The position numbers and the translations under genes are program-made. Shown in pieces: positions 19,496 through 36,700 of a stretch of DNA of 64,000 nt (position 1 is the stretch's first letter; each line of letters begins with the position of its first letter). The notes beneath the pieces are model-generated. The model made no database searches and was not told where the DNA came from. It saw only the letters and a program-made list of their open reading frames with translations. This stretch comes from Nesterenkonia salmonea (GTDB taxonomy: Bacteria; Actinomycetota; Actinomycetes; Actinomycetales; Micrococcaceae): NCBI RefSeq assembly GCF_005771525.1, contig NZ_VAVZ01000010.1, positions 1-64,000 of the forward strand, in the 5' to 3' direction.

Positions 19496-20602
19496 GTGAT
19501 CGCCGTTGTCATCGGTGCCGCCACTGGGCTGATCCTCACCCTCCTCGGTACCCCACTGTTCATCCGTTTCCTTGTCAAACGTGGCTACGGCCAGTTCATT
19601 CGCGACGACGGACCCACCACCCACCACGTGAAGAGGGGAACACCCACTATGGGTGGCGCCGTGATCATCCTCGCGGTGATCATCGCCTATGCCGCGACCC
19701 ATGCGGTGCTGTTCTTCACCAGCGACGTCGCCGCCGGCCCCAGCGCCTCGGGGCTCCTGCTTTTACTGCTGATGACCGGTATGGGACTGGTCGGGTTCTT
19801 CGACGACGCCGCCAAGATCACCAAGAAGCAGTCGCTAGGTCTGAGCCCCTGGGCCAAGATCACCGGACAGGCTTCCGTCGGCGTCCTGTTCGCCGTTCTC
19901 GCCCTGCAGTTCCCCAATGACCAAGACATCACCCCGGCGTCGACCGCGATTTCCTTCGTCCGCGAAACCGTCTTGGACTTTGCCGTGCTCGGAACTGTGG
20001 TGGGAGGAATCCTCTTCGTCATCTGGGCCAACATCATCAACACCGCCGCCACCAACGCGGTGAATCTCACCGACGGTCTCGACGGGTTGGCCAGTGCCGC
20101 TACCGCGATGGTCACCGCCGCCTATGTGATCATCTCCATCTGGCAGTACAACCAGTCCTGCGGCGGCGTTCGTGCTGTGGACTCTGTCTGCTACTCAGTG
20201 CGGGACCCCATGGATATGGCCACACTTGCAGCGATCATCACCGGAGCGCTGATCGGGTTCCTGTGGTGGAACACCTCGCCGGCAAAGATCTTCATGGGAG
20301 ACACCGGCTCACTGGCCCTGGGTGGGGCACTGGCCGGTTTCGCCATCCTGACCCACACCCAGTTGCTGTTCGTCATCCTGTGCGGACTGTTCGTCATCAT
20401 CACCGTCAGCGTGATCATCCAGGTCGGCTACTTCAAGCTCTCCAAGGGCAAACGTGTCTTCCTCATGGCCCCCCTGCAGCATCATTTCGAACTCAAGGGG
20501 TGGGCTGAGGTCACCGTGGTGGTTCGGTTCTGGATCATCGGAGCCCTCGCCGTCGGCATGGGCCTCGCCGTGTTCTACGGAGAATGGGTGCTCGCCCAGT
20601 GA
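19496..20602 (+). CDS. mraY: Phospho-MurNAc-pentapeptide-transferase
   Basis: A 368-aa integral membrane enzyme that makes lipid I from UDP-MurNAc-pentapeptide and undecaprenyl phosphate. About ten transmembrane segments. Signature sites are [12 protein letters not shown] near 42, [12 protein letters not shown] (Asp pair) near 103, [13 protein letters not shown] near 189, [12 protein letters not shown] near 265, and [13 protein letters not shown] near 323 (HHH/HHFE loop). GTG 19496 directly follows the murF stop with GAAAGGA upstream. The end overlaps murD by 4 nt. Confidence 0.96.
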
Positions 20603-22122
20603 GCGAACACCGCACACTCCCACAGCTTCACGGATGGGACGGACCCTGGGCAGGCCTGCGGGTTCTCGTCACCGGGTTCGGGGTCACCGGATTTTCCGTT
20701 GCGGACACACTGGCGGAACTCGGAGCCCACATCGTCGTGGTTGACGGCACCGCAACAGGAACAAAACAAGACGACGCCGCCACGCTTTCCACCATGTGGG
20801 GAGACCGTCTGGAGTTCCGATTCGGCGAGGACCACACGACCACACTGCGACACTTCGCAGCAGCCGACGGCACCACTGACATTCCGGAACTCATCGTCAC
20901 GTCACCTGGATGGCGGCCAGACTCCCCGATCATCGCAGCAGCCGCAGTCCACCACGTGCCTGTCTGGTCAGATATTCAGCTCGCCCGACGGCTCGGGGCC
21001 CGTCCTGGTGCCAAAGACCCCGACTGGTTGGTCCTCACCGGAACCAACGGCAAGACCACCACTGTCATGATGCTGGAGGCCATGCTGAGCGCCGACGGAC
21101 GACGCGCAGCCGCCTGCGGAAATATCGGCATGCCCATCCTGGACGTCATCCGCGACCCCGAAGGCTATGACGCACTTGCTGTGGAACTGTCCAGCTTCCA
21201 GCTGCACTACACCGAACCGCTGCACCCGGTGGCCTCCGCAGTGCTCAACATCGCTGAAGACCATATGGACTGGCACGGAGGACTTGAGAGTTATTTGGCG
21301 GACAAGGCCAAGATCTACGAGTCAACCCAGGTGGCCTGCGTCTACAACGCCCAGGACTCCGTGACGGAGAAGATGGTCGCTGCCGCCGATGTGGTCGAGG
21401 GAGCCCGCGCTATCGGCTTCACCACCGACTCCCCGGACGTGTCGATGCTCGGGCTGGTCGACGACATCCTGATTGACCGTGCCTTTCTGGACAACCGTCG
21501 GCACCAGGCCTTGGAGCTCGCTACCCGTGCGGATTTCGGAAGCCTCGCCCCACAGCACCTCGTGGCCAATGCCCTTGCGGCCGCCGCCCTGGCCCGGGCG
21601 GTCGACGTGGCCCCGGCATCCGTGCAACAGGCTATTCGGGCCTATGAGCCGGCGGAGCATCGCATACAGCCAGTGGCCAAGGCGGACGATGTCCTCTGGA
21701 TCAACGACACCAAAGCCACCAACCCACATGCGGCAGCAGCCTCACTGGCGAGCTTCACTGATGTGGTGTGGATCGCCGGAGGGCTCTCCAAAGGAGTCGA
21801 CTACGACCCTCTGGTTCAGCAGGTCGCCGCCCGTCTGCGACATGTGATCCTGATTGGTACAGACTCCACCCAGCTTCGCTCCAGCCTTGAGCGACACGCC
21901 CCCCAGGTGCCCGTCACAGAGGTCTCCGGCAGTGATGATGGAGAGGCAGTCATGCGCAGCGCTGTCCGATCAGCAGACCGGTACGCCCAACCAGGGCAGG
22001 CCGTAGTGCTGGCTCCGGCCGCAGCATCCATGGACCAGTTCGCCTCGTACATCAGTCGAGGAGAGCAGTTCATTGCCGCGGTGACCGCGCTGATGCAGGA
22101 CAAAGGTTTCTCGACCGAGTAA
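20599..22122 (+). CDS. murD: UDP-MurNAc-L-alanine--D-glutamate ligase
   Basis: A 507-aa Mur ligase adding D-Glu to UDP-MurNAc-L-Ala. N-terminal Rossmann-like [14 protein letters not shown]-loop [12 protein letters not shown] near 147, [46 protein letters not shown] (split: [19 protein letters not shown]) and WIAGG are visible. GTG 20599 is chosen because it gives a GTGA overlap with mraY; ATG 20584 upstream would add five residues and has no spaced ribosome site. An AAGGAGGAG follows the stop for ftsW. Confidence 0.95.
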
Positions 22123-22133
22123 GGAGGAGCACC

Positions 22134-23609
22134 ATGGACAAGAGGCCCCCGCGCCTACCCTCCTCCAAAAGGCCAGATATTCACGGCGACTCGGCAGTTC
22201 TCACGCCGCCCAGCGCTGCCTCGCCGGAGGAGCCCGACGAGCAGCACACCGGTGACGTGCCCCAGGGCTATCTGCGTCTGGTGGACGATATCGACGACGA
22301 CGCCGCGGGCCCAGACGCTGCGGAAGAACCCGGTGATGGGTCACTGGGGCGGGCATGGAGAGCCCAGCAGGCCGAGCGCCGAGCTGAACGCATCACCAAA
22401 TTCTGGGGCATCTTCGAAGGGGGCAATCCTTACACCAACTACTGGTTGGTATTGGGTGCCACGATCGCACTTGCGGCGTTCGGACTGACCATGGTGCTCT
22501 CTTCCACCTCAGTCGATGGAGGCGGACAGCCCTTCACCACCGCTACTCGGCAGGCAGTATGGGCCGGTATCGGCGTCATCGGCATGCTGTTCATGACGGT
22601 CATTCCCACCCGATGGATGGGATGGATCGGCTGGGCAGCCATGATCATCGCCAGTGTCCTGCTGGCACTGGTGGCGTTCTCGCCCTGGGGCTACACCGGA
22701 GGCGGCTCGACGAACTGGCTGCGCATCGGACCAGTTCAGGGGCAGCCCTCAGAGGTCGCCAAGCTGGCGCTTGTGCTCTGGGGGGCAGCCGTGCTGGCGC
22801 GCAAAGGGAAACTGGTCAATCAGTTCACGCACTGGATGATGCCGTTCGTGGCCCCCGGTGCCCTGTCCGTTCTGGTGCTCGTACTCGCAGGTGGCGACCT
22901 CGGGACCAGCCTGGTGATCATTCTCATCGCCGCGGCGCTGCTCTTCACCGCCGGAATCGGTATGCGCTGGTTTGCTCTTGCCGGACTCTTCGCCTCTGGC
23001 GCAGTTGCGCTGCTGATGTGGATCACTCCCTATCGCATGATGCGCGTCTACGCCTGGTTGGGAATGAACTGTGACCATCCCACCGAGCCCTGCTACCAGA
23101 CGGAGCAGGGCCTCTTCGCTCTCGCGTCTGGAGGCTTCTGGGGCGTAGGTCTGGGGCAGTCCCGGCAGAAATGGGACTACATTCCCGAAGTGCACAATGA
23201 CTTCATCTTCACCATCATTGGCGAGGAACTGGGTCTCCTTGGAACGGTGACAGTTCTGGGACTCTTCGCCGTCCTGGTCGTCGGCATCTTCCGAGTCGCC
23301 AACGGCATCACGGGAGACACCTACCACGCGCGGTTCGTGAAACTGGTCTGCATCGGTATCATCGCGTGGATCGTCGGTCAGGCCTTCATCAACATCGCGA
23401 TGGTCACCGGGCTGATCCCTGTGGTGGGTGTGCCCCTGCCGTTCATCTCCTACGGCGGGTCCGCCCTGACTGTTGCCCTGATCGCCGTCGGCGTGATTCT
23501 CAACTTTGCCCGTAGGCAACGGATTGAGGCGCGAACACCTAAACGGCGCAACAGAAAACGGCGCAAGCGGTCTACACTGACACCGCCAGCCACGTCCGCC
23601 CCCTCCTGA
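22134..23609 (+). CDS. ftsW: Septal peptidoglycan polymerase FtsW (SEDS family)
   Basis: A 491-aa multi-pass SEDS glycosyltransferase that polymerises lipid II at the septum together with FtsI. A long acidic cytoplasmic N-terminus (about 1-100) precedes some ten transmembrane helices. Family marks: NWLRIGPVQGQPSEVAKL, GGDLGTSLV with the catalytic-region Asp, SGGFWGVGLGQSRQKW, VHNDFIFTIIGEELG, and GVPLPFISYGGSA. The tail is very basic. ATG 22134 has an excellent AAGGAGGAG site. murG follows after 18 bp. Confidence 0.96.
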   Translation: MDKRPPRLPSSKRPDIHGDSAVLTPPSAASPEEPDEQHTGDVPQGYLRLVDDIDDDAAGPDAAEEPGDGSLGRAWRAQQAERRAERITKFWGIFEGGNPYTNYWLVLGATIALAAFGLTMVLSSTSVDGGGQPFTTATRQAVWAGIGVIGMLFMTVIPTRWMGWIGWAAMIIASVLLALVAFSPWGYTGGGSTNWLRIGPVQGQPSEVAKLALVLWGAAVLARKGKLVNQFTHWMMPFVAPGALSVLVLVLAGGDLGTSLVIILIAAALLFTAGIGMRWFALAGLFASGAVALLMWITPYRMMRVYAWLGMNCDHPTEPCYQTEQGLFALASGGFWGVGLGQSRQKWDYIPEVHNDFIFTIIGEELGLLGTVTVLGLFAVLVVGIFRVANGITGDTYHARFVKLVCIGIIAWIVGQAFINIAMVTGLIPVVGVPLPFISYGGSALTVALIAVGVILNFARRQRIEARTPKRRNRKRRKRSTLTPPATSAPS

Positions 23610-23627
23610 ACTCCGCAAAGGAAACAC

Positions 23628-24722
23628 ATGACAGCTGCCAGCGTCGTCCTCGCCGGCGGAGGAACTGCCGGGCACATCAGCCCGATGCTCGCCATCGCCT
23701 CCGCCATCGAACGGCTCGACACATCGGTGAGCCAGTCGATGATCGGCACTGCCACGGGACTTGAAACGCGCCTGGTGCCCGCCGCCGGCTACGAACTCGA
23801 CCTCATTGAGAAGGTCCCCTTCCCACGGAGGCCGAACCGCGACACCCTGAGCTTTCCCTCCCGTTTCGCCCAGGCGAGCCGAGAAGCCCAGAACATCCTG
23901 CGCAGGCGGGGAGCCGACGTCGTTGTGGGTGTGGGTGGATACGTATGCCCTCCCGTCTACCGTGCCGCGAAGAAGCTCGGTATTCCCGTAGTTGTCCACG
24001 AGGCGAACGCACGGCCCGGCCTAGCCAATAGGATTGGCGCCCGACAAGCTGCCTTTGTGGGAACGGCCTTTCAGGAGACCCCGCTCAAGGGGGCCACCCA
24101 TGTGGGCATGCCGATGCCACGGCAGGTCTCGCAATTGGATCGTGAGCACATGCGCGTTCAAGCCCGCCAGGAGCTGGGCCTGCAGACTGATCGGACCACC
24201 TTGGTGGTCACCGGTGGGTCCTCCGGTGCGCAGAACCTCAATGCGGCAGTCGCCTCCGCACTGGAGGACCTGCTCAGCACCGGCGCGCAGGTCCTCCACC
24301 TGACCGGACAGGACAAGGAAGTCAGAGATGACACCGGCGCGCTCCTCGAGGCGGACGGATACCACCAGCGGGAGTACCTCGACGGGATGCACCTCGCCTA
24401 TGCTGCTGCAGACCTGATCGTGGCTCGTGCCGGGGCGGCCACAGTATGCGAAGTCGCTGCCGTAGGCCTGCCGGCGGCATTCGTGCCACTTCCCATAGGC
24501 AACGGTGAGCAGGAGCTGAACGCTCGAGGCCTGGTCGATGCAGGAGGTGCACTCCTAGTCAAGGACGAACATTTCACCCGATCCTGGATCGGACGCAACC
24601 TTTTGCCCCTTCTGGAAGATCCCCGACTTCTGGGCACCATGCAGAAGCAGTCCGCCGCCCGCGGTATCACTGACGCCGATGAGCGTATGGCTCGTGCGGC
24701 TCTGGAGGCGGCTGCCAAATGA
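23628..24722 (+). CDS. murG: Lipid II synthase: UDP-GlcNAc transferase MurG
   Basis: A 364-aa peripheral membrane glycosyltransferase (GT28) that adds GlcNAc to lipid I. N-terminal GGGTAGHISPMLAIA binds the lipid-linked acceptor; GVGGYVCPPVYRAA, VHEANARPGLANR, VTGGSSGAQNLN and the UDP-binding ARAGAATVCEVAAVGLPAAFVP follow (split: ARAGAATVCEV, GLPAAFVP). ATG 23628 follows AAAGGAAA. Four-base overlap (ATGA) with murC. Confidence 0.96.
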   Translation: MTAASVVLAGGGTAGHISPMLAIASAIERLDTSVSQSMIGTATGLETRLVPAAGYELDLIEKVPFPRRPNRDTLSFPSRFAQASREAQNILRRRGADVVVGVGGYVCPPVYRAAKKLGIPVVVHEANARPGLANRIGARQAAFVGTAFQETPLKGATHVGMPMPRQVSQLDREHMRVQARQELGLQTDRTTLVVTGGSSGAQNLNAAVASALEDLLSTGAQVLHLTGQDKEVRDDTGALLEADGYHQREYLDGMHLAYAAADLIVARAGAATVCEVAAVGLPAAFVPLPIGNGEQELNARGLVDAGGALLVKDEHFTRSWIGRNLLPLLEDPRLLGTMQKQSAARGITDADERMARAALEAAAK

Positions 24723-26131
24723 GCCTTGACTCTCTTGGCCGCGTCCACTTCCTCGGCCTAGCCGGCGTCGGGGTTTCCGCAGTCGCGCGGCTGATGCTTG
24801 CAGCCGGGGTGCCCATCTCCGGAACCGACGCCAAGGAACTGCCCGTGCTCGATGAGTTCAGGGCAGCCGGTGTTCCCGTCAGGGTCGGATACAGCGCGGA
24901 AAACCTCAGCTCCTTGGAAACTGAGACGGGTTCGACCATCAGCACCGTCGTCGCCTCCTCCGTGGCCACCGCCGGTAACCCCGAGTACGACGCCGCGGCA
25001 GCAGCTGGCGTGCGCCTGCTGCACCGTTCAGAGGGCCTGGCTGCCTGTATGGAGGACAAGCAGGCGATCGCGGTCGCAGGAACCCATGGCAAGACCACCA
25101 CAAGCTCTATGACGGCCATCATGCTCCACGGCGCCGGGTGCGATCCCAGCTTCGCGATAGGTGCCAATGTGGCCGGGTTTGGAACGAACGCCAGATTAGG
25201 AGCAGGGGAGTGGTTCGTCGCTGAGGCCGATGAGTCGGACGGGTCTCTGCTGAACTACTCAACGGCGATCTCCGTGGTGACCAATGTCGAACCCGACCAC
25301 CTAGACCACTACGGAACCGCCGAGGCGGTAGAACAAGTCTTCATTGACTTCACCGAACGCATCCAGGAATCTGGAGCGCTCGTGCTCTGCCTGGACGATC
25401 CCGGAGCCCGCGACCTACTCCACCGGGTCCAACAGCCCCTCACAGAACGCGGGGTGCGGATCCTGACCTATGGCACGTCCCAGGATGCCGACCTCACACT
25501 CAGTGCTGTCACCCCATCTGGGTTTCGGCAGGAAAGCGTCCTGACGCTTGGCGCAGATACGGACCGGCCGCAGCCGCGCAGCGCCAGTATGGTGTTGCAG
25601 GTTCCAGGGCTGCACAACGCCCTCAACGCCACCGCAGCGGTGGCGGTAGGGATCGCGGCAGGCCTTGACCTTGAGCGGTGCACGGCCGCACTGGGACGGT
25701 TCAGCGGAAGCTCCAGAAGGTTCGAACTTCGCGGCGAGGTCAATGGTGTGGCGGTCTACGACGACTACGCCCACCACCCCACAGAAGTTGCCGCTGTACT
25801 GAGCGGGGCCCGCAGTGCGACAACGGGAAAAGTGCACGCTGTCTTTCAACCCCACCTGTTCAGTCGCACACGGGACTTTGCCGCAGACTTCGGCGCCGCC
25901 CTCAACGCCGCAGATACTGCCATCGTGCTGGACATCTACCCTGCGCGTGAGAAGCCCATTGTGGGAGTCACCGCAGAACTGCTCGGCCACCCGGTGCTCA
26001 GCCGGTCTGAGGCTGCCGCCGCAGTTGCCAACGCGGCTGAACCCGGAGATATCGTTCTCACCATCGGAGCTGGAGACGTCACCTACCTGGCTACCGAGAT
26101 AGTGAAAGTACTGCAGGAGCCCACAAGGTGA
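24719..26131 (+). CDS. murC: UDP-N-acetylmuramate--L-alanine ligase
   Basis: A 470-aa Mur ligase that adds the first amino acid, L-Ala, to UDP-MurNAc. HFLGLAGVGVSAVARLML is the N-terminal nucleotide-sugar domain, GTHGKTTTSSM the P-loop near 118, then EADESDGSLLNY, NVEPDHLDHYG and DDYAHHPTEVAAVL. ATG 24719 overlaps murG (ATGA) and the stop overlaps ftsQ (GTGA). Length is typical. Confidence 0.96.
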   Translation: MSLDSLGRVHFLGLAGVGVSAVARLMLAAGVPISGTDAKELPVLDEFRAAGVPVRVGYSAENLSSLETETGSTISTVVASSVATAGNPEYDAAAAAGVRLLHRSEGLAACMEDKQAIAVAGTHGKTTTSSMTAIMLHGAGCDPSFAIGANVAGFGTNARLGAGEWFVAEADESDGSLLNYSTAISVVTNVEPDHLDHYGTAEAVEQVFIDFTERIQESGALVLCLDDPGARDLLHRVQQPLTERGVRILTYGTSQDADLTLSAVTPSGFRQESVLTLGADTDRPQPRSASMVLQVPGLHNALNATAAVAVGIAAGLDLERCTAALGRFSGSSRRFELRGEVNGVAVYDDYAHHPTEVAAVLSGARSATTGKVHAVFQPHLFSRTRDFAADFGAALNAADTAIVLDIYPAREKPIVGVTAELLGHPVLSRSEAAAAVANAAEPGDIVLTIGAGDVTYLATEIVKVLQEPTR

Positions 26132-26889
26132 CGCTGGACCCTGAGGCCGCTCTCGAGTTCCCTGAACCCGAGGCGGTCGGAGCTAGGCGACGGCGTCGTC
26201 GTTATCTCATGAGCCTGGCAGCAGCCTTCCTCGGCCTACTGGCGGTGGTCGCCACGATCTACTTCTCACCGCTTTTTCCCTTACGCACTATCGAAGTCCA
26301 GGGCAATGAGCTGCTCACCGACCAGCAGGCAGATGAACTGCTCTCTGACCTTTATGGCCAGCCGGTGGCACAGGTCGGCACCGGCGAGGTCCACGAGCGG
26401 CTCGATGCGGAGAACGTTGTGGCAGAGGTCTCGAGTCGGATCGAGCTACCCGGCACCTTGCATGTCGAGATTGTTGAGCACCCCCCTGTGGCAGAGGTCC
26501 ACCAAGACGGGGATGTCCTGCTGTACTCCGATCTCGGAGAAGTCATCCGTACGTTCGCAGGCGCGGAACAGTTGGAGGCCGAGGACTATGCGACTCCGGA
26601 GATATCCTCTGAGGCCGCCCTGGAAGATGAGGCCGTCTTCGGCACCATCGTCTCCGTGCTCGGAGAACTGCCACCCGATGCGCGATCCCAACTTGACTCA
26701 GCAACAGCCGATTCGATCGATTCCGTCCAACTGGAACTAGCGGATGGGCGAACCGTCGTCTGGGGGTCCGATGACCGCGGAGAAGAGAAGGCCGTGGTCC
26801 TGCAGTCCATCCTCGGCTCCTCTGAGGAAGCCTTCCAGGAGGCTGACATCATCGACATATCCACGCCGTCAACTCCGGTTACGCGGTGA
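26128..26889 (+). CDS. ftsQ: Cell-division protein FtsQ (POTRA domain)
   Basis: A 253-aa bitopic membrane protein that bridges early and late divisome parts and binds FtsL/FtsB. A short cytoplasmic N-terminus with an Arg cluster (ARRRRRRY-like, 23-30) is followed by a transmembrane helix (about 31-51) and the POTRA domain starting FPLRTIEVQGNELLT. The extracytoplasmic portion is acidic (EAEDYATPEISSEAALEDE), in line with the acidic xylanase. GTG 26128 overlaps the murC stop. The last gene before the 323-bp gap to ftsZ. Confidence 0.9.
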   Translation: MTLDPEAALEFPEPEAVGARRRRRRYLMSLAAAFLGLLAVVATIYFSPLFPLRTIEVQGNELLTDQQADELLSDLYGQPVAQVGTGEVHERLDAENVVAEVSSRIELPGTLHVEIVEHPPVAEVHQDGDVLLYSDLGEVIRTFAGAEQLEAEDYATPEISSEAALEDEAVFGTIVSVLGELPPDARSQLDSATADSIDSVQLELADGRTVVWGSDDRGEEKAVVLQSILGSSEEAFQEADIIDISTPSTPVTR

Positions 26890-26950
26890 GAGCTGACCTC
26901 GCGGGTAGGCTGGGGACACAACTGAAGATCGCCGCACCCCCTGATCAGCT

Positions 26951-26975
26951 AAGGTTCAAGCTCAACTTGAACCTT
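26951..26975. promoter_or_regulatory. Perfect 10-bp inverted repeat in the ftsQ-ftsZ gap
   Basis: AAGGTTCAAG (26951-26960) and CTTGAACCTT (26966-26975) flank a 5-nt centre, CTCAA. The symmetry looks like a protein-binding operator; MerR/SoxR-type sites have similar TTCAAG/CTTGAA halves, but I cannot assign a regulator. TTGAAC in the right arm could also serve as a -35. It lies 238 bp before ftsZ. Confidence 0.5.
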
Positions 26976-27039
26976 GCTGACGGTACCTGCGGAGCAGAAG
27001 AATGAGCCCTGTTACGAAGACTCCCGGCCGGTGAGAGGC

Positions 27040-27120
27040 ACGTCGAGTCGACGTCTCCGGTGCACAGGCTTCCCGAGGCACCCGCGAACTGCCTCGGTAG
27101 GTACCGAACGCACTGGAGAC
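27040..27120 (+). ncRNA. Structured ftsZ leader RNA (candidate cis-element)
   Basis: An 11-bp helix joins 27053-27063 (GTCTCCGGTGC) to 27110-27120 (GCACTGGAGAC) with a single G-U pair. It encloses a second hairpin with perfect 8-bp arms, CCGAGGCA (27073-27080) and TGCCTCGG (27090-27097). Just 5' lies ACGTCGA-G-TCGACGT (27040-27054), which competes for two bases of the big helix. Alternative long pairings also exist: CGGTACC (26981-26987) with GGTACCG (27100-27106), and CCGGTGAG (27028-27035) with CTCACCGG (27154-27161), suggesting a possible switch. No T-tract follows, so it is not a simple terminator. I do not recognise it as a known RNA class. The rest of the 323-bp gap codes for nothing credible. 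Confidence 0.45.
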
Positions 27121-27212
27121 GGGGAAGACAGTGAGGAGTCGTTCTCGGCTTCGCTCACCGGCGGGGGTCTTCGTGCATCTGTGACTTTTCAACAGCTAAG
27201 GGACAAACACAC

Positions 27213-28403
27213 GTGGCTACACCGAGCAATTACCTCGCCGTGATTAAGGTCGTCGGCATAGGCGGCGGCGGCGTCAACGCCGTCAACCGCATGATCGAAG
27301 TCGGTTTGCGCGGCGTGGAGTTCATCGCCATCAATACAGACGCCCAGGCGCTACTGATGTCTGACGCCGACGTCAAACTCGATGTGGGTCGCGAGCTGAC
27401 CCGCGGACTCGGGGCCGGCGCCAACCCTGAGGTGGGCCGACAGGCTGCAGAGGACCACACCGAGGAGATCGAAGAAGTTCTCCGAGGTGCCGATATGGTT
27501 TTCGTCACCGCAGGTGAGGGAGGCGGCACCGGAACGGGCGGCGCCCCCGTGGTGGCACGGATCGCCCGCAGCCTGGGAGCGCTGACCATCGGAGTCGTCA
27601 CCAGGCCGTTCACCTTCGAAGGACGCCGGCGCGCGAGCAGCGCTGAGGCTGGTATTGAAGGGCTGCGCGATGAAGTCGACACCCTCATCGTCATCCCCAA
27701 CGATCGCCTGCTCTCCATCTCGGACAAAAACGTCTCCGTCCTGGACGCTTTCCGCTCCGCAGACCAAGTCCTGCTTTCCGGTGTCCAAGGCATCACTGAC
27801 CTGATCACCACCCCCGGTCTGATCAACCTCGACTTCGCAGACGTGAAGTCAGTCATGCAGGGGGCTGGCTCAGCTCTGATGGGCATCGGTTCCGCCAACG
27901 GTGAGGACCGCGCGGTGAAGGCTGCTGAACTTGCGATCGCTTCACCCCTGCTGGAAGCCAGCATTGACGGTGCCCACGGTGTGCTGCTCTCTATCCAAGG
28001 CGGCTCGGACCTCGGTCTCTTCGAGATCAACGAGGCTGCACGGCTGGTCCAGGAAGTCGCGCACCCCGAGGCGAACATCATCTTCGGTGCTGTGATCGAC
28101 GACGCTTTGGGAGATGAGGCACGGGTCACGGTCATCGCCGCCGGGTTCGACCAGGCAGATGTGACATCAAAGCCCGCCGCCCCCGCTGCTCCAGCTCAGC
28201 CACAGCGGCCTGTTGCCCCGGTCGCTGGAGCCACTGCAGGTGCCTACGCCGCCTCTGCGGGCTCTCAGGACACCGCGCCTCAGAGTCGTACCTCCCCAGA
28301 TGCGGCCCAGGAGCGATCGGAAGAAAAGCTCCCCGAGATCGTTGAGTCTGACTACACCGGTAAGAACGACGACGACCTCGACGTTCCCGATTTCCTCAAG
28401 TAG
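27213..28403 (+). CDS. ftsZ: Cell-division GTPase FtsZ
   Basis: A 396-aa tubulin homologue that polymerises into the Z ring. N-terminal [16 protein letters not shown], tubulin signature [10 protein letters not shown] near 106, T7-loop region [11 protein letters not shown], and a variable Ala/Pro linker (about 320-380) ending in the conserved C-terminal peptide DLDVPDFLK that binds SepF. GTG 27213 has AAGGGA 9 nt upstream. There is no ftsA upstream, as usual in actinobacteria; SepF encoded 1.6 kb downstream is the membrane tether. The long structured leader suggests its own regulation. Confidence 0.97.
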
Positions 28404-28437
28404 AACGCCTCCGGCGCCGGGAACGCGAGCTGACTTG

Positions 28438-29148
28438 GTGTCAACACTCTGGTGGCAGGACCGCAGCGGGCGAGTGAGTCTGGGGTTCACCTCAGTTGAA
28501 GTTGGAAACTTGGCACATCATGTGGGCGACAGCAGTGATGCCGCGGTCAACCGTGGCACACTCGAAAGTCAGCTGAGTCTGCCCCAGGGCTCGTTCCGGT
28601 ACCTCAACCAGGTCCATTCGGCGAACGTCATAGATGCCTCCACAGCTGATTCGATCCCGACCGGTGACGCCTGGATCTCCACCGACGGGTCCCATCCGCT
28701 GGCGATCATGGTGGCCGACTGCCTGCCTGTGCTGTTCATCGCCCGCAATGGTGGAGGCAGCCAGCTGACAGCAGCCGCGCATGCAGGACGGCCTGGTCTT
28801 ATCGGCGGGGTCCTCCAGAACACTGTCGCCGAGCTTCTGCGTCATGGTGGCGACTCCGTTACCGCCTGGATTGGCCCTGGAGCCTGCGGCGCATGCTACG
28901 AGGTGCCCCAGGAGATGTTCGATGAACTCACCGACGGCAGACCTGCACTGGCCTCCACAACCCGCTGGGGCACACCTGCGTTGGACCTGCGCTCCGAAGC
29001 CCGCGCCATCTTGGAGTCCCTAGATGTCACGGTGGTTGATATCGACGGCTGCACGATTGAGGACCCGACGCTTTTCTCACATCGGGCCAGCCAACAGAGC
29101 GGAGCCCCGGAGGGGCGCATCGCCGGACTCATCTGGGCAGACAGCTAG
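28438..29148 (+). CDS. pgeF: Laccase-domain purine nucleoside phosphorylase (YlmD/YfiH family)
   Basis: A 236-aa protein of the DUF152/COG1496 family (multi-copper-oxidase-like fold). Characterised members are purine nucleoside phosphorylase/adenosine deaminases; the gene is also called pgeF for a role in peptidoglycan editing. The Zn-binding His/Cys/His set is visible in NQVHSANV, VADCLPVLF and AAAHAGRPG; the last usually reads HAGWRG, so the Trp is missing here. The frame opens inside ftsZ, but GTG 28438 (TTG 28435 is one codon up) is the first sensible start. Placement between ftsZ and yggS is conserved in actinobacteria. Confidence 0.85.
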   Translation: MSTLWWQDRSGRVSLGFTSVEVGNLAHHVGDSSDAAVNRGTLESQLSLPQGSFRYLNQVHSANVIDASTADSIPTGDAWISTDGSHPLAIMVADCLPVLFIARNGGGSQLTAAAHAGRPGLIGGVLQNTVAELLRHGGDSVTAWIGPGACGACYEVPQEMFDELTDGRPALASTTRWGTPALDLRSEARAILESLDVTVVDIDGCTIEDPTLFSHRASQQSGAPEGRIAGLIWADS

Positions 29149-29178
29149 CCGCGTTGGGACTAGTGAACAGAGGCCAAG

Positions 29179-29184
29179 TAGGCT
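29179..29184 (+). promoter_or_regulatory. Leaderless -10 element for yggS
   Basis: TAGGCT ends 7 nt before GTG 29192, giving a transcript that begins at the start codon. Confidence 0.5.
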
Positions 29185-29191
29185 GGACACC

Positions 29192-29998
29192 GTGGACTTC
29201 ACAACTGCTTTTCGCTCCGCGGCTGACAACGCCGATGATCCTCGCACCCGCCAGTTGGCGCTGAACCTCGCCGCAGTCCACGAAAGAATCGACAAGGCAG
29301 TGGCCGCCTCCGGACGGACCGACCGCCCTGAACTTATTGTGGTGAGCAAATACTTCCCACCTGAAGATGTTCAGCGCCTGTTCGAACTTGGTGTCCGGGA
29401 TATCGGAGAGAACAAAGACCAAGAAGCCGCGGCCAAAGCGGCCTCTGTGGCAGAGCTGCTTCAGGATAGAGACCGCAGGTCATCCCCTGAAGATCCTCAC
29501 GACACAGCGTTGCGGTGGCACTTCATTGGGCAGCTGCAAACGAACAAGGCGAAGTCCGTTGTTCGCTACGCTCATTCTGTCCACTCTGCAGACCGTCCCA
29601 AACTGGTCAAAGCTCTGGACAACGCGGCCGAACGTGCCTCCGGGGAGGGAGTCCGCAGCCAACCGCTGGAAGTTCTCATCCAAGTGGACCTGCGCAGCCC
29701 TCTTCCTGAGGACCACCGCGGGGGCGCCTCCCCCACAGACATGCTGAGCCTCGCCGAGATCATCGCCTCCTGCGAGCACCTGCATCTCGGGGGCCTCATG
29801 GCAGTAGCTCCATTGGAGGAAGCGCCGGAACCTGCGTTCGCCAGGCTGGGAGAACTCGCTCAACTACTGGTGACTGAGCATCCAGTGGCTACGCAGATCT
29901 CTGCCGGGATGAGTCAGGACCTTGAAGCGGCGGTCAGCTGCGGAGCGACACGCCTACGCATCGGACGCGATGTCCTCGGTGAGCGGCCCCACCACTAG
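29192..29998 (+). CDS. yggS: PLP-homeostasis protein, YggS/PLPBP family
   Basis: A 268-aa single-domain protein with the alanine-racemase TIM-barrel fold that binds pyridoxal phosphate but is not an enzyme; it buffers free PLP. The PLP Lys is in VVSKYFPPEDV near residue 50. IGENKDQEA, WHFIGQLQTNKAK and the C-terminal SAGMSQDLEAAVSCGATRLRIGR (split: SAGMSQDLEAAV, CGATRLRIGR) are family marks. A frame open further upstream overlaps pgeF; GTG 29192 is chosen because of the leaderless promoter and homologue length. Its place between ftsZ and sepF is conserved across Gram-positive bacteria. Confidence 0.93.
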   Translation: MDFTTAFRSAADNADDPRTRQLALNLAAVHERIDKAVAASGRTDRPELIVVSKYFPPEDVQRLFELGVRDIGENKDQEAAAKAASVAELLQDRDRRSSPEDPHDTALRWHFIGQLQTNKAKSVVRYAHSVHSADRPKLVKALDNAAERASGEGVRSQPLEVLIQVDLRSPLPEDHRGGASPTDMLSLAEIIASCEHLHLGGLMAVAPLEEAPEPAFARLGELAQLLVTEHPVATQISAGMSQDLEAAVSCGATRLRIGRDVLGERPHH

Positions 29999-30047
29999 TA
30001 ATGTCGGGATCGCGACACAACCATAACCTTCCCCAGGAGCTTGAACC

Positions 30048-30674
30048 ATGGCCGGTGCATTCAAGAAAACAATGATCTACCTCGGTTTAGCCGATGGTGA
30101 CGACTACAACGAAGACAGCTTCGGCAGCGAGGAACGACCCTCGTCCCGCCACGCCGCATCATCCGGTGGTACTGCCACCACAACACGCCCAGCACCTGCG
30201 GCCGCTCAGCCTACAGGTGCGGTGGTGTCACTGGCGGATCGCGCCGCAGCAACGACTCCTGACAGCAGCGACGACGCTGACCCGGCAGGCTCGTACAACA
30301 GCACCAACCTTGCGGTGGCCCCGGACTACCGGGCCCCAGTAACCCCCATCAAGCGTGCACCCTCCTCTCGGGACGAAAGCTCAGAAATGCGAAAGATCAC
30401 CACTGTTCACCCCCGCTCCTACAATGACGCCAAAATCATCGGTGAGTCCTTCCGCGAGGACATCCCCGTCATTATGAACGTCACGGAGATGGGTGAGGGC
30501 GAAGCCAAGCGCCTTGTGGACTTCGCGGCGGGCCTCGTTTTCGGTCTCGGCGGGTCCATCGAACGGGTCACCAACAAAGTGTTCCTCCTGACTCCTCGCA
30601 ACGTAGAAGTTGTCGCCGAGGAGAAGGCCGCAGCTGAGCCTGAAACGAACGCCAAGTTCTTCAACCAGTCCTGA
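30048..30674 (+). CDS. sepF: FtsZ membrane anchor SepF
   Basis: A 208-aa protein that tethers FtsZ to the membrane in bacteria lacking FtsA. N-terminal amphipathic helix ([20 protein letters not shown]), a low-complexity Ala/Pro/Thr linker (about 30-105) and the C-terminal beta-alpha SepF domain (about 112-190) with [43 protein letters not shown] and [13 protein letters not shown] 30048 follows AGGAGCTTGAACC. It should bind the FtsZ tail peptide DLDVPDFLK noted upstream. Confidence 0.95.
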
Positions 30675-30713
30675 CACAAGATTGTGAAGATGGCTCAAAC
30701 GGGTTCGCTGAGG

Positions 30714-30719
30714 TAGCCT
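30714..30719 (+). promoter_or_regulatory. Leaderless -10 element for yggT
   Basis: TAGCCT ends 8 nt before GTG 30728; no ribosome site lies between. Confidence 0.45.
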
Positions 30720-30727
30720 GAGCACCC

Positions 30728-31015
30728 GTGGACCTCATCACTGCACCCCTCTATCTCGTCCTTACCGTCTATCAGTTTGCCCTGATCATTCGGATTATCT
30801 TCAACATCACGGAGTCATACGCGCGGAACTGGCGACCAAAGGGCCTGGTGCTCATGCTGGCGGTCGGTATCTACGCTGTGACTGACCCGCCATTGCGCTG
30901 GTTGAACCGCAAGATTCCACCCCTGAACCTCGGTGGTGTCTCGCTGGATATGGCGTTCATCATCGTGTTCTTGGCCGTTGTGATCGCCAAATCTCTGATT
31001 GCCGGTTTCGCCTGA
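30728..31015 (+). CDS. yggT: YggT family membrane protein
   Basis: A 95-aa protein with two hydrophobic segments (about 4-24 and 72-94) and the family's central YARNWRPKG...DPPLRWLNRKIPPLNLGG stretch (split: YARNWRPKG, DPPLRWLNRKIPPLNLGG). Function is not well defined; the gene normally sits between sepF and divIVA in Gram-positive bacteria, as here, and has been linked to division or envelope maintenance. GTG 30728 fits a leaderless transcript. Confidence 0.9.
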   Translation: MDLITAPLYLVLTVYQFALIIRIIFNITESYARNWRPKGLVLMLAVGIYAVTDPPLRWLNRKIPPLNLGGVSLDMAFIIVFLAVVIAKSLIAGFA

Positions 31016-31149
31016 TCTGTGAACCCAGACGTTCCCAGTGAAGCCTGACTTGAAGGTTCGGGTCGAAGCGGCCAAAGTTGGCTGGGTATTGTGTGGGATG
31101 AGACGCTTTTATGCCACAACCTGCCACTGACAATGAGGTGACGCTTTCC

Positions 31150-32073
31150 ATGGCTCTGATGCCAGATGACCTCCTGAACAAGGAGTTTCCGGAGACCAAA
31201 TTCCGCCCTGGGTACGACAAGGACGAGGTCGACGACTTTCTCGATGAGGTGGTCGTCGAATGGCGCCGTCTGATTCAGGAGAACGAGGAGCTGCGGGCAG
31301 AGAACGCCACGTTGCAAGAGCAGCTCGACGGTAGCGACTACGTCGAGCCCGATGAGCTCAAAGACGCAGGTCTCTCCGGCTACGCCGGTACCTCCGCAGA
31401 GGTCACCGGAACATTCGAATCCGTTGACGATGACGCCGCAGCGGTGCCCGACACGCCGGAGTCCGACCAGGACCACACACAGTCTGTGACCCCGCAGGGC
31501 GACCCCAACGTCACCGCATACCCGGAGTACGCGCTCGGCACCCGACCAGCACAGGAACGCCCAGAAGCGCAACCGGACACATCCGCCGGAGGCCCAGCGG
31601 CCGAGGCAGCCGGTGTGCTTGCCATGGCGCAGAAGCTTCACGATCAGTACGTCGCTGAGGGCGAAGAGAACCGTGCAGCATCGATCGCCGAAGGTCAGTC
31701 AAAGCGCGCTGAGCTCATCCATGAAGGTGAAACAACCAAGGAAGAACTCATCAATGAGGGCACATCCAAGCGTGCCGAACTGATCGCAGACGGTGAGCAG
31801 ACTCGCGCTGAGTACATCGCCGAAGGTGAAGCCAAACGCTCCGAGCTGCTCACCGACGCTGAGACTCGCGCTGAGTCCATGATCGAAGAGGCCGAACTGA
31901 CTTCCACTCGCACCCTCAACGCACTGGAGCGGAAGAAGGGCGACCTGGAGGCTCGAGTGAGCGAACTCACCGGCTTCGAACGTGACTACCGCGCCCGGTT
32001 GAAGGACTACATTGAGAATCAGCTGGCAGAGCTGAATTCCCAAGGAACTATCGAAAAAGAGACGTCAGGCTAA
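31150..32073 (+). CDS. divIVA: Polar growth scaffold DivIVA/Wag31
   Basis: A 307-aa coiled-coil protein that recognises curved membrane at poles and septum and recruits wall synthesis. The N-terminal lipid-binding DivIVA domain has MALMPDDLLNKEF, KFRPGYDKDEVDDFLDEV; a first coiled coil follows (35-60), an acidic Pro/Ser-rich spacer (62-150), then a second coiled coil with seven tandem 11-residue repeats (169-245). ATG 31150 is chosen by homology and has GAGGTGA upstream; an in-frame ATG 31111 would add 13 residues. A terminator closes the division cluster directly downstream. Essential in related actinobacteria and a target of Ser/Thr kinases such as those of the Pkn family. Confidence 0.93.
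   Translation: MALMPDDLLNKEFPETKFRPGYDKDEVDDFLDEVVVEWRRLIQENEELRAENATLQEQLDGSDYVEPDELKDAGLSGYAGTSAEVTGTFESVDDDAAAVPDTPESDQDHTQSVTPQGDPNVTAYPEYALGTRPAQERPEAQPDTSAGGPAAEAAGVLAMAQKLHDQYVAEGEENRAASIAEGQSKRAELIHEGETTKEELINEGTSKRAELIADGEQTRAEYIAEGEAKRSELLTDAETRAESMIEEAELTSTRTLNALERKKGDLEARVSELTGFERDYRARLKDYIENQLAELNSQGTIEKETSG
31654..31884 (+). repeat. Seven tandem hendecad (11-aa) repeats inside divIVA
   Basis: Residues 169-245 read as seven 11-residue units: AEGEENRAASI, AEGQSKRAELI, HEGETTKEELI, NEGTSKRAELI, ADGEQTRAEYI, AEGEAKRSELL, TDAETRAESMI. The pattern (x-E-G-x-x-K/R-R-A-E-L-I) is a hendecad coiled coil, straighter than heptads. It likely grew by in-frame duplication of 33 bp, though the DNA has diverged between units. 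Confidence 0.8.
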
Positions 32074-32093
32074 ATCCGCGCTCTCGATCATAG

Positions 32094-32128
32094 AAGAAGG
32101 GGACTCCCATGTTGGGGGTCCCTTTCTT
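32094..32128 (+). terminator. Terminator after divIVA
   Basis: AAGAAGGGGACTCCC (32094-32108) and GGGGGTCCCTTTCTT (32114-32128) pair over 15 bp with wobbles around a 5-nt loop, with pyrimidine-rich CCCTTTCTT on the 3' side. It ends the division cluster 20 bp after the divIVA stop. Confidence 0.75.
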
Positions 32129-32154
32129 GCGTGCTGAGGGCATAGACGTGCTTG

Positions 32155-32160
32155 TAGACT
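32155..32160 (+). promoter_or_regulatory. Leaderless -10 element for lspA
   Basis: TAGACT ends 6 nt before GTG 32167. Confidence 0.5.
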
Positions 32161-32166
32161 CGACAG

Positions 32167-32790
32167 GTGCCATCAGCCGAATCTCCTTCCCAGCCTGACC
32201 CGGAAAACGCGACTACGCCCCAGCCCCGGACCAAAGGGCCTCGCCGCGGCGTCGCCATCGGTGTTGCTTGTCTCATCGCACTCAGTGCGTGGCTGCTGGA
32301 CCAGGCCACCAAACTATGGGTGGAAAGAACTATGGAGATCGGCCAACAGCTGGACGCGATCCCACCGGTGCTGTACTGGCGCTATCACCTCAACCCAGGT
32401 GCCGCATTCTCCATGGGGACCGATCACACGTGGGTCTTCACGATTATTCAGGCCATCGTGTTGAGCGTCGGTCTGTTCTATCTGTTCCGACTGGGGGGGT
32501 CATGGTTGTGGACACTCGGGCTGGGCGGACTGATCGGTGGAGTCGCCGGGAACTTGACGGACAGGCTCTTCCGGGCGCCTTCCCTCGTGGATGGAACCTT
32601 CGAACAGTTCGGCCAGGGTCACGTGGTGGATATGATCGCGGTGCCGCATTTTGCGGTATTCAATGTCGCGGACAGCTTCATCGTCTTTTCCATTATTGGG
32701 CTGTGCGCCATGATGTTATTCGGTCTGAACCTGGACGGCACTCGAGACGTTAAGAACACATCCGCACCCGAAGACACAGAGGCAAACTGA
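32167..32790 (+). CDS. lspA: Lipoprotein signal peptidase (signal peptidase II)
   Basis: A 207-aa membrane aspartyl protease that cuts the signal peptide of prolipoproteins after diacylglyceryl modification by Lgt (encoded at 55.1 kb). Four transmembrane helices follow a Pro-rich cytoplasmic N-terminus. The catalytic Asp pair lies in [12 protein letters not shown] (near 137) and FNVADSFIV (near 170); [10 protein letters not shown] is a family mark. GTG 32167 fits the leaderless pattern. One-base overlap (TGATG) with rluD. The xylanase is a predicted substrate. Confidence 0.94.
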
Positions 32791-33731
32791 TGACTGAATA
32801 CTCCGTTCCAGCAGAGCTGGCTGGGAAACGGGCTGACGCCGTCGTGGCGGGCGTCAGTGGGGTTTCCCGGACCGAGGCAGCTGGGTGGATTGCCGACGGC
32901 AGAGTCACCTGGGCCCAGTACCGGACTCAGGGTCGGGAGGCAGGTGTGCCGGTGAAGAAGTCGGAAAGGCTCCACGAAGGCGCCCAGATTGCGGTCCATG
33001 AGCCAGATCCAGTCGACCTGACCGATATTAAGGCGGAATCCGTGCAAGATATGACGCTGCTGTATGAGGACGACGACCTTGTGGCAGTCAACAAGCCGGT
33101 AGGTGTGGCCGCGCACCCCTCTCCGGGGTGGCGGGGTGCCACGGTCATCGGAGGGCTATTGGCACAGGGCGTCAACATCTCCACCTCAGGGGCTCAGGAA
33201 CGCCGCGGGATCGTGCACCGACTAGACGTTGGAACCTCCGGAGTGATGGTGGTGGCGAAGACTGAGCGGGCCTACAGCGTGCTCAAAGACGCCTTCCGTG
33301 ACCGGACCCCGGCAAAGACTTACCACGCACTCGTTCAGGGACTTCCAGATCCACATGAGGGAACTATCGACGCCCCCATCGGCCGCCACCCCGGACATGA
33401 CTGGAGGTTCGCGGTTATGGAGGGCGGACGTGAGGCTCGCACCCACTACGAGCTCATCGAGGCCTATGGACGTGTCAGCCTGATGAACATCCGCCTAGAA
33501 ACTGGGCGGACACACCAAATCCGTGTGCACTTTGCAGCGCTCGGGCATCCCTGTGCTGGTGATCTGACCTATGGTGCTGATCCACATCTGGCCGCTGATC
33601 TGGGGCTCACTCGGCAGTGGCTGCACGCCTTTGAACTGGGCATAGATCACCCGGTCGGCGGTGAAAGGCTGACTATCCGCAGCGACTATCCGCAGGATCT
33701 TACTGAGGCACTGCGCATCTTGGAGGGCTAG
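32790..33731 (+). CDS. rluD: RluA/RluD-family 23S rRNA pseudouridine synthase
   Basis: A 313-aa pseudouridine synthase with an N-terminal S4 RNA-binding domain (about 14-80, [20 protein letters not shown]) and the RluA catalytic domain. [20 protein letters not shown] holds the catalytic Asp (HRLD), followed by KTYHALVQG and [20 protein letters not shown]. Members next to lspA usually modify helix 69 of 23S rRNA; the exact target is inference. ATG 32790 shares a base with the lspA stop. Confidence 0.9.
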
Positions 33732-33739
33732 GAGAGCTT

Positions 33740-36700
33740 ATGGTTGAGAACTTCGTCCACCTGCACAACCACACCGAGTACTCGATGCTTGACGGTGCCG
33801 CCAAGATCGATGACATGTTCGCACGAACAGAGGAACTGGGGATGCCGGCGGTTGCCATGACCGACCATGGGTTCCTTTTCGGCGCCTACGAGTTCTGGAA
33901 GACCGCGCAGAACTACGACGTGAAACCCATCATTGGGCTCGAAGCCTATTTGACCCCTGGCACTCATCGTTCGGAACGGAAAAGAGTGCGCTGGGGCGAA
34001 GGGTCAGTGGGTGAGAAGGACGTCTCCGGCGGCGGTGCCTACACCCATATGACGATGTGGGCGCAGAACACCGAGGGTATGCACAACCTCTTCCGGCTCG
34101 GCTCGCGAGCCTCCGTGGAGGGCACCTTCTATAAGCCGCGCGCAGACCGGGAACTCCTCTCGGACTTCGGCAGAGGAATCATCGCTACGACAGGGTGCCC
34201 CTCCGGTGAGATTCAGACCAGACTGCACCTGGGCCAGTATGAAGAGGCTAAGCGGGCAGCCGGCGAATTTGAAGAGATTTTCGGCAAAGGTAACTTCTAC
34301 TGCGAACTGATGGACCACGGCCTGCCGATCGAGCGCCGAGTTCGCCAGGACCTTCTGCAACTGTCCAAAGATCTGAACCTCCCCCTGGTGGCCACCAATG
34401 ACCTCCACTACACGCATCAGCACGACCATAAGGCGCACGGCGCTCTGCTGTGCTTACAGACCGGTGCGACTCTGGATGACCCCAACAGGTTCAAGTTCGA
34501 TGCTGAAGAGTTCTATCTCAAGTCTCCAGCCGAGATGCGCCACCTGTTCCGTGAGGTGCCTGAGGCCTGCGACAACACGCTCGAGATCGCAGAGCGTTGT
34601 GAGGTCACGTTCGATGAGAACGCCTCCTATATGCCCAGGTTCCCTGTCCCAGAAGGCGAGACAGAAGAGTCCTGGTTCATCAAAGAGGTAGAGAAAGGGC
34701 TGCACTACCGCTTCCCGGACGGCATCTCAGAGGAAACCCGGGAGCAGGCCCGGTACGAAATCGGCGTGATTACCCAGATGGGCTTCCCCGGTTACTTCTT
34801 GGTCGTGGCAGACTTCATCAACTGGGCTAAGGAGAACGGCATCCGAGTCGGTCCCGGTCGTGGGTCCGGGCCAGGCTCAATGGTCGCCTATGCCATGCGC
34901 ATCACTGACCTCGACCCCTTGCAGCACGGGCTGATCTTTGAACGGTTCCTGAACCCTGACCGCGTGTCCATGCCCGACTTCGATGTGGATTTCGATGATC
35001 GTCGCCGCAGTGAAGTTATTGACTACGTGGTCAAGAAATACGGCGATGAGCGCGTGGCCATGATCGTGACCTACGGCTCGATCAAATCCAAACAGGCCCT
35101 CAAAGACGCCGCCCGAGTCATGGGCGAACCTTTCCAAACTGGTGAGACGCTCACCAAAGCTATGCCGCCGGATCAGCAGGGAAAACCCATCCCACTGGCG
35201 GACATCCACGACAAAGACTCCAAACGGTACGCCGAAGCCGGCGAATTCCGTGAAATGGTCGACTCTGACCCTCGGCTGAAAGAGATCTTCGAGGTCGCCG
35301 TCGGACTGGAAGGCCTGAAGCGTCAGCCCGGTGTGCACGCCGCAGGTGTCATCATGTCCTCCGACCCACTGATCGACATTATCCCCCTGATGCGCCGTGA
35401 GCAGGATGGGGCGATCATCACGCAGTTCGACTACCCGATCTGTGAGTCGCTCGGCCTCATCAAGATGGACTTCCTGGGGTTGCGCAACCTCACCATCATC
35501 TCCGATGCACTGGAGAACATTCAGCTGAACAAAGGCGTCGAGATCGATCTGGAAACTCTGGATCTCAACGATCGTCCGTCCTACCAACTGCTCTCGCGCG
35601 GCGATACTCTGGGTGTGTTCCAACTCGACGGCTCTGGGCTGCGTTCACTGCTGCGGCAAATGCGCCCCGATAACTTCGAAGACATCTCCGCGACGATCGC
35701 CCTGTATCGACCCGGTCCGATGGGCGCGAACTCCCACACCAACTACGCCCTGCGCAAGAATGGTCAGCAGAAGGTCACTCCTATCCACGCGGAGCTCGAA
35801 GAGCCGCTGGCGGAGATTCTCAACACCACCTACGGTCTGATCATCTATCAGGAGCAGGTGATGGCCATTGCTCAGAAAGTCGCAGGCTATAGCCTCGGCC
35901 AGGCGGATATTCTGCGTCGGGCCATGGGTAAGAAGAAGAAGTCTGAACTAGACAAGCAAAAGGTCGGTTTCTTCGAAGGAATGGCAGCAAACGGGTACTC
36001 CGAGCAGGCATCCCAAACTCTCTGGGACATCCTGCTGCCGTTCTCCGACTACGCATTCAACAAGGCCCACTCTGCCGCCTATGGGCTCATCGCCTATTGG
36101 ACGGCGTATCTGAAGGCCAACTACCCGGCTGAATACATGGCTGCATTGCTCACCAGTGTGGGAGAGAACCGCGATAAGCTCGCGATCTACCTCTCCGAAT
36201 GTCGTCATATGGGGATTACGGTCACCGCTCCGAGCATCAACGAATCAGCACTGACCTTCACCCCAGTGGGGGACGACACCATCCGATTCGGCATGGGGGC
36301 AGTCCGAAACGTTGGAGCAAACGTCGTCGCCGGCATCGTCGATGCTCGCCAGGAGAAGGGCAAGTACACGTCCTTCGTGGACTTCTTCACCAAGGTCCCA
36401 GCACAGGTCTGCAATAAGCGCACTATGGATTCACTCATCAAGGCCGGAGGCTTCGACGAGCTCGGGCACACTCGCCGGTCCCTGGTGACCATCCATGAGT
36501 TGGCTGTCGACCAGGCGATCCGGCAGAAGAAAGACTCGGAGCAGTACGAGACAGATATTTTCGGTGCTTTTGCTGAAGCCGACGATGAACCCGGCGGAGG
36601 TTTCGAAGCCGTCAAGGTTCCTGAGCTGCCTGAATATGAGAAGAAGGACAAGCTGAACTTTGAGCGGGAAATGCTCGGACTCTATGTCTCTGATCACCCA

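Follow-up and report, generated by a model that had tools for sequence, protein, structure and literature searches.

In the window, the whole stretch of 64,000 nucleotides of Nesterenkonia salmonea DNA that was analyzed, the division genes ftsQ and ftsZ are separated by a gap of 323 bp. The preliminary description of this DNA gave the same length, and the ends of the open reading frames (ftsQ end at 26889, GTG at 27213) bear it out. The match of ftsQ to its family model (E 9e-33, 113 bits) falls below the model cut-off of 353. The genes and the ribosome binding site between them are as follows.

26128 to 26889, plus strand: ftsQ, the upstream neighbor (open reading frame, with NCBIfam PRK05529, cell division protein FtsQ)
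27198 to 27203, plus strand: ribosome binding site AAGGGA of ftsZ, read from the sequence
27213 to 28403, plus strand: ftsZ (TIGR00065, 417 bits), start codon GTG at 27213

The same AAGGGA lies upstream of ftsZ in many other Micrococcaceae genera. Compared with dinucleotide shuffles, the whole gap folds with z = -5.8, which points to more structure than expected by chance, and the 203 nt from 27010 also reach z = -5.8. In the explanation that we favor, the gap would constitute the promoter and 5' leader of ftsZ. The suggestion that this leader contains an undescribed structured RNA is well supported by conservation across the genus, by covariation in bulk, and by the lack of a relevant match in Rfam. 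The RNA consists of stems P1 to P3, a hairpin P4, an invariant loop, and an invariant junction, placed in the window as listed here.

27011 to 27178, plus strand: structured leader RNA (match to covariance model R1, 144.7 bits, this sequence being itself among the model-building set)
27014 to 27031, plus strand: P1 5' strand, pairing with 27158-27174
27044 to 27051, plus strand: P2 5' strand, assigned by eye in the window as CGAG-U-CGA pairing with 27139-27141 and 27144-27147
27052 to 27063, plus strand: P3 5' strand, pairing with 27110-27121
27068 to 27102, plus strand: P4 hairpin, 27073-27080/27090-27097 with extension 27068-27071/27099-27102
27082 to 27088, plus strand: invariant apical loop CCGCGAA, in 27/27 aligned sequences and also in L204
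27118 to 27138, plus strand: end of P3 and conserved junction GACGGG...GACAGTGAGGAG, in which CAGTGAGGAG is invariant in 27/27 and also in L204
27158 to 27174, plus strand: P1 3' strand, pairing with 27014-27031

All of the individual elements first described in the gap are present. The 11-bp helix is found at 27053-27063/27110-27120, within a 12-nt repeat and with one G-U pair, and the 8-bp helix at 27073-27080/27090-27097. Two long-range pairings, one of 7 bp (26981-26987 with 27100-27106) and one of 8 bp (27028-27035 with 27154-27161), likewise exist, but not as the mutually exclusive states of one switch that they had been taken for. The 8-bp pairing belongs to a longer closing stem, P1, of which it forms the inner end; this stem had been missed, and the pairing is compatible with the hairpin. 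P1 joins the separately described parts into a single rod of ~165 nt.

The helices differ in how firmly their pairing is kept (model-fitted alignment, 28 sequences). P1 has 96.8% of its cells paired, with double changes in 5/17 pairs, and is otherwise largely invariant or changed on one side. The part of P2 adjoining the junction is 96.4% paired, with two of four pairs double-changed; outer P2 is 80.4% paired, its register shifts between clades, and the window's own minimum-energy fold lacks P2 and pairs that part otherwise. The first four pairs of P3 are 96.4% paired and the remainder varies by clade, and the 8-pair part of P4 is 95.1% paired, with double changes in five of the eight. The 7-nt apical loop is predicted to be unpaired (mean 0.95 over 28 sequences). 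The 10-nt junction CAGTGAGGAG is only partly open in prediction, with a mean unpaired value of 0.59 over the 28 sequences and 0.24 in the window, where the minimum-energy fold pairs most of it. In leaders L105 to L109 an extra stretch, foldable as a hairpin, lies between P3 and the invariant junction.

The absence of credible coding in the gap, as first stated, holds in comparison with relatives: no conserved coding is present, and the RNA lengths of the 27 aligned sequences fall into all three classes modulo 3. A leader peptide beginning at an ATG that follows the -10-like element was considered and rejected, as the frames that follow differ among relatives when read by eye and the RNA lengths are not constant modulo 3. 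A simple scan of the plus strand agrees with the earlier remark that the gap has no T-tract, and by the same scan no terminator follows the RNA. This last result bears on the possibility that the rod is a processing substrate, cut by a double-strand-specific nuclease such as RNase III so that ftsZ mRNA is trimmed and perhaps a small RNA freed. The long stacked helices P1 to P3 would suit such an enzyme, but the near-perfect helices are short and interrupted and the scan shows no terminator behind them, and we consider processing very unlikely as the function of the rod.

To place the RNA among relatives, we compared ftsZ loci within Nesterenkonia and beyond it. The gene was found in 29/30 Nesterenkonia genomes; 27 of these loci have the RNA, and in the other two the gap is short and lacks it. 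The 27 leaders share a mean identity of 67% and a minimum of 50%, and the covariance model made from them finds a full sense copy before ftsZ in 28/30 genomes, one full copy per carrier. The 28th carrier, G028 (locus L204), lies outside the model-building set and scores 88.4 bits; its RNA runs into ftsZ near a contig end. The only other match in the genus is of 44 nt and 34.5 bits in G005, and with one full copy per carrier we rejected a mobile element as the source of the RNA. A comparison across Micrococcaceae, proposed in the preliminary description as a check, found the RNA in Nesterenkonia only, apart from one weak match: among 395 family genomes, 365 of them outside the genus, a 44-nt stretch in G326 (35 bits, E 0.0015) was the sole match outside the genus at E <= 0.01 and is taken as chance. 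Searches at E <= 1e-4 under strict filters gave no carrier beyond genus members in 297 genomes of the order and only the window's genome in 296 genomes of the phylum, the family, order, and phylum samples overlapping.

The invariant words follow the same distribution. From 31 other genera, 38 ftsZ upstream regions were collected and 37 placed; in the last 300 nt before ftsZ, CAGTGAGGAG occurs in 0/37 and CCGCGAA in 1/37. Among phage contigs, 50 stretches were returned for the two-word pattern, none with a model match at E <= 1. That no named RNA class is known here, as first supposed, agrees with Rfam searches of window positions 20000-34000 and seven genus loci, which gave no relevant match on the leader at E <= 1. 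Among the loci examined, L012, from a record titled Sporosarcina beigongshangi, has a Micrococcaceae-type ftsZ locus with 84% FtsZ identity and an Arthrobacter-like promoter; the record appears to be misnamed or to come from a mixed assembly.

Evidence of covariation is apparent for the structure as a whole, assessed on 44 pairs that we drew by hand, guided by folds of the same sequences taken singly and as a consensus. In a sequence-only alignment of the 27 leaders, 90.4% of cells are standard pairs, and 20 pairs, with 104 cells, are changed on both sides. None of 500 shuffles was as high on paired cells, double-changed pairs, double-changed cells, or covariation score, and the number of further pair types was reached by 85/500; versions of the structure slid along the alignment were at most 46% paired. 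The model-fitted alignment of 28, which leans to the structure, gives 92.5% paired cells, 25 double-changed pairs, and 123 such cells. As relatedness can mimic covariation, substitutions were also moved at random along the tree, in three modes of 200 runs each. These nulls average 59-70% paired and 27-38 double-changed cells (70% and 28 in the strictest mode), and in no mode were the observed values reached (0/200). As many double-changed pairs as observed arose in 9/200 runs of the loosest mode and in no run of the two stricter modes. Tested pair by pair against the tree-based null, 2/44 pairs are significant at E < 0.05, both in P4, and when all column pairs were tested against this null none was. 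Covariation is thus strong in bulk but weak pair by pair, and the structure as a whole is well supported, P4 best.

The strand on which this structure would act can be read from the same sequences. G-U cells number 95 versus 23 A-C cells (27 sequences), and in 27/27 the sense strand has the more stable fold, with a mean z of -6.4 versus -4.3 for the antisense strand. The excess of G-U together with the stabler sense fold makes it most likely that the RNA is read in the direction of ftsZ. Weak antisense model scores do appear at the same place in 9/30 genomes (25-38 bits), which the near symmetry of the rod explains, and they could be claimed for an imperfect palindrome in DNA, whether a mobile element remnant, a protein-DNA site, or chance, with no role as RNA. 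We find this hardly credible, given the single full copy that each of the 28 carriers has, the bias in G-U and in fold stability, and bulk covariation above the tree-based nulls.

Upstream of the RNA lie the following predicted transcriptional elements.

26906 to 26911, plus strand: upstream -10-like element TAGGCT, a consensus match only (upstream GTANNNT match in 27/28, none in L204)
26951 to 26975, plus strand: 25-bp inverted repeat AAGGTTCAAG-N5-CTTGAACCTT, a possible FtsR site (DNA operator), 14/25 letters
26974 to 26979, plus strand: predicted -35 element TTGCTG, starting within the last letters of the inverted repeat (TTGCYN, 17-18 nt from AASAAT in 28/28)
26998 to 27003, plus strand: predicted -10 element AAGAAT, a consensus match only (AASAAT in 28/28 genus sequences)

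A promoter-like arrangement, TTGCYN-17/18-AASAAT, stands directly upstream of P1 in 28/28. The -10-like element ends 9-11 nt upstream of P1 in the 26 sequences that could be measured, L097 and L101 having a variant P1 start, and the distance from the end of P1 to the start codon is 36-41 nt in 28/28 (about 38 nt in the window). The RNA between them is 158-213 nt long among the 27 aligned sequences and 158-216 nt with L204, so the flanking geometry is fixed while the inside of the RNA varies in length. From these elements we infer that ftsZ transcription may start near 27010, the mRNA beginning at the RNA. AAGAAT differs from the usual TANNNT, and should the promoter be the TANNNT element farther upstream, the leader would be longer.

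A fixed position at both ends would also suit a passive stabilizer, in which a strong helix at the 5' end blocks 5'-end-dependent decay and keeps the ribosome site open without any ligand. P1 begins about 2-4 nt from the predicted transcript start, its end keeps the same distance from the start codon in every carrier, and the fold is very stable. Such a role needs no invariant 7-nt loop and 10-nt junction, which are kept in 27/27 leaders at 67% mean identity, and we regard it as unlikely. That invariant CCGCGAA and CAGTGAGGAG sit on helices of variable sequence suggests that loop and junction form a binding surface.

The proposal of a two-state switch does not survive comparison within the genus. 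Its key pairing, 26981-26987/27100-27106, is in register with at least 6/7 pairs in only 5/28 sequences, or 7/28 if the register may slip by as much as 4 nt, and its 5' half lies inside the spacer of the conserved promoter-like element. An alternative helix, 27019-27024/27135-27140, is conserved, since nearly all sequences can form it, yet shows no compensatory change; by a rough estimate, a helix between such invariant segments is expected by chance. Sequestration of the ribosome site was sought in the 28 sequences, and nothing conserved was found beyond short pairings of 4-6 bp that lack compensatory change, including a 4-bp pairing of UCCC with GGGA that is taken as chance; no switch is therefore visible. 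Predicted openness is near one half at the ribosome site in every one of the 28 (0.42-0.56) and low at the ftsZ start codon, most of which is in pairs (mean open 0.06).

Two possible partners near the start codon were rejected. Loop CCGCG can pair with start region CGTGG in 28/28 carriers, yet it can do so with 32/36 starts of other genera and with both genus genomes that lack the RNA. Within the coding sequence, six pairs between 27212-27217 and 27237-27242 could form a hairpin over the start codon in 30/30 Nesterenkonia loci and 3/36 from other genera, a difference due mainly to a valine codon that is GTG and not GTC; as a partner of the RNA it was set aside, being possible in 28/28 carriers but also in 2/2 genus genomes without the RNA.

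These results also bear on a riboswitch, in which a small molecule or ion, held by junction and loop, would switch expression of ftsZ. The pattern of invariant words on variable helices is aptamer-like, and the alternative helix 27019-27024/27135-27140 could in principle serve, but no conserved expression platform was found and the full copy occurs only at ftsZ and in one genus. We consider a riboswitch of this kind quite unlikely.

The perfect 10-bp palindrome noted in the preliminary description (26951-26960/26966-26975) is present, and its designation as an operator is plausible. It resembles the site of FtsR, and FtsR is encoded in the genome; the resemblance is moderate, and the element may be the already known FtsR operator rather than a new one. 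In the available part of PMC6683498, FtsR (Cg1631/Rv1828) is a known actinobacterial activator of ftsZ with a 25-bp inverted repeat as its operator. An inverted repeat of this length lies before ftsZ here and would be a candidate for a site like AACCCTAAAGTAAAGGTTGAGGGTA; it matches the published Corynebacterium glutamicum site in 14/25 letters in the window and 12-17/25 in the genus (28 sequences, better strand), with one sequence at 12, six at 13, 11 at 14, four at 15, three at 16, and three at 17. As background, 0.08% of window 25-mers reach 14/25 and none reaches 16. In the two genomes without the palindrome, the best 25-mers in the 420 nt before ftsZ score 13 and 14, which leaves the resemblance only moderate. 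The exact palindrome pattern occurs solely upstream of ftsZ, in 23/30 genomes.

The window's genome encodes an FtsR (NF050798, 240 bits versus a cut-off of 150) that matches the Rv1828 structure 5ydc (1.9e-11). Its gene is flanked by an FHA gene and a nuclease-domain gene, the same neighborhood as described for the FtsR system (PMC6683498), with which the 25-bp inverted repeat upstream of ftsZ is also shared. Compared with the site given there, the Nesterenkonia palindrome differs at positions 3-4 and 22-23, and its center is 238-297 bp upstream of ftsZ, the RNA sitting between repeat and gene, whereas the same source (PMC6683498) gives site-to-start distances of 41-193 bp. In other genera, TTGACA is found in 25/37 regions, 24 of them with a site of at least 14/25 one base behind, and FtsR-like sites are centered 63-194 bp before ftsZ. 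Many of these other-genus regions (L147-L203) also have, by eye, a GACACG-type box with a TAGCGT-like -10 upstream. Across the 28 genus sequences, between 7 and all 10 of the palindrome's pairs are kept. Its reading as an RNA hairpin was rejected, since the right arm reads CGTT rather than CCTT in 15/28 and the left arm has no matching change. Such uncompensated changes make it more likely that the palindrome acts as DNA than as RNA, perhaps as a diverged FtsR site.

Taken together, the results lead us to consider it probable that the RNA is a cis-acting ftsZ leader which binds a factor and tunes the amount of FtsZ, downstream of an FtsR-type operator and promoter. In this explanation the operator (26951-26975), bound by FtsR, would adjoin the promoter; the transcript, predicted to run from near 27010, would begin with the rod-shaped RNA, whose helices of variable sequence would hold the CCGCGAA loop and the GACAGTGAGGAG junction in place. 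Loop and junction would bind a protein or other factor in cis, and binding would alter how the ftsZ mRNA is translated or how stable it is, thereby setting the amount of FtsZ, in one direction or the other. On this view the leader probably adjusts the FtsZ level. A variant would be a genus-specific riboswitch-like sensor, with a metabolite, ion, or RNA ligand at CCGCGAA and CAGTGAGGAG, inserted downstream of an FtsR operator of ancestral origin and ahead of the ribosome binding site; we hold this to be quite unlikely.

Genomes G015 (L110) and G016 (L091) have the short gap, with neither the RNA nor an intact palindrome, which indicates that the RNA is not indispensable; RNA and operator seem to have been lost together, and FtsR is retained in G016. 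A multi-gene tree groups G015 and G016 with the carrier G002 (support 0.98), with G013, a thinly covered carrier, falling among this group at 0.54; the tree is midpoint rooted with uneven coverage, its YlmD query, which contained stops, being aligned in 13 genomes only. The poorer ftsZ nucleotide tree instead places both beside the window's clade (0.89); other genera are intermingled with Nesterenkonia in it, and we give it little weight. Since both trees set G015 and G016 among carriers, loss is the simplest reading of the absence, with a root that is not secure.

Among known systems, the Nesterenkonia RNA is close in kind to structured cis-regulatory leader RNAs, such as riboswitches and protein-binding leaders. 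With these it shares its position in the 5' leader, covarying helices, sense strand, and invariant words in loop and junction; it differs in having no relevant Rfam match (E <= 1), a single target, ftsZ, restriction to one genus, and no visible expression platform. T-box leaders contain an ACCGCG-like conserved string. The Nesterenkonia RNA shares such a string but differs in having it in an apical loop, and Rfam searches gave no T-box match. RNA control at ftsZ is described in the available part of PMC9628754 for StfZ, a cis-antisense RNA at ftsZ of Escherichia coli made from the ftsA-ftsZ region. Both RNAs derive from the region before ftsZ, but StfZ is antisense as described there (PMC9628754), whereas the Nesterenkonia RNA is sense, lies in the ftsZ leader, and is conserved by structure. 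The actinobacterial control of ftsZ described in the sources consulted is transcriptional, via FtsR (available part of PMC6683498) and WhiA. The main texts of PMC11109978 and PMC8632094 do not contain ftsZ, Nesterenkonia, Arthrobacter, Micrococc-, Kocuria, or cell division. In openly licensed literature on ftsZ regulation or Nesterenkonia, main texts only, we found, among the best-ranked titles, none describing this RNA.

FtsZ drives bacterial cell division, and its level is a main control point of division. Through a conserved structured leader, ftsZ would gain a layer of control at the RNA level, in a small, concrete element open to testing. Restricted to one genus and apparently lost in one lineage, the RNA would also exemplify the recent acquisition of a regulatory RNA by a core gene.
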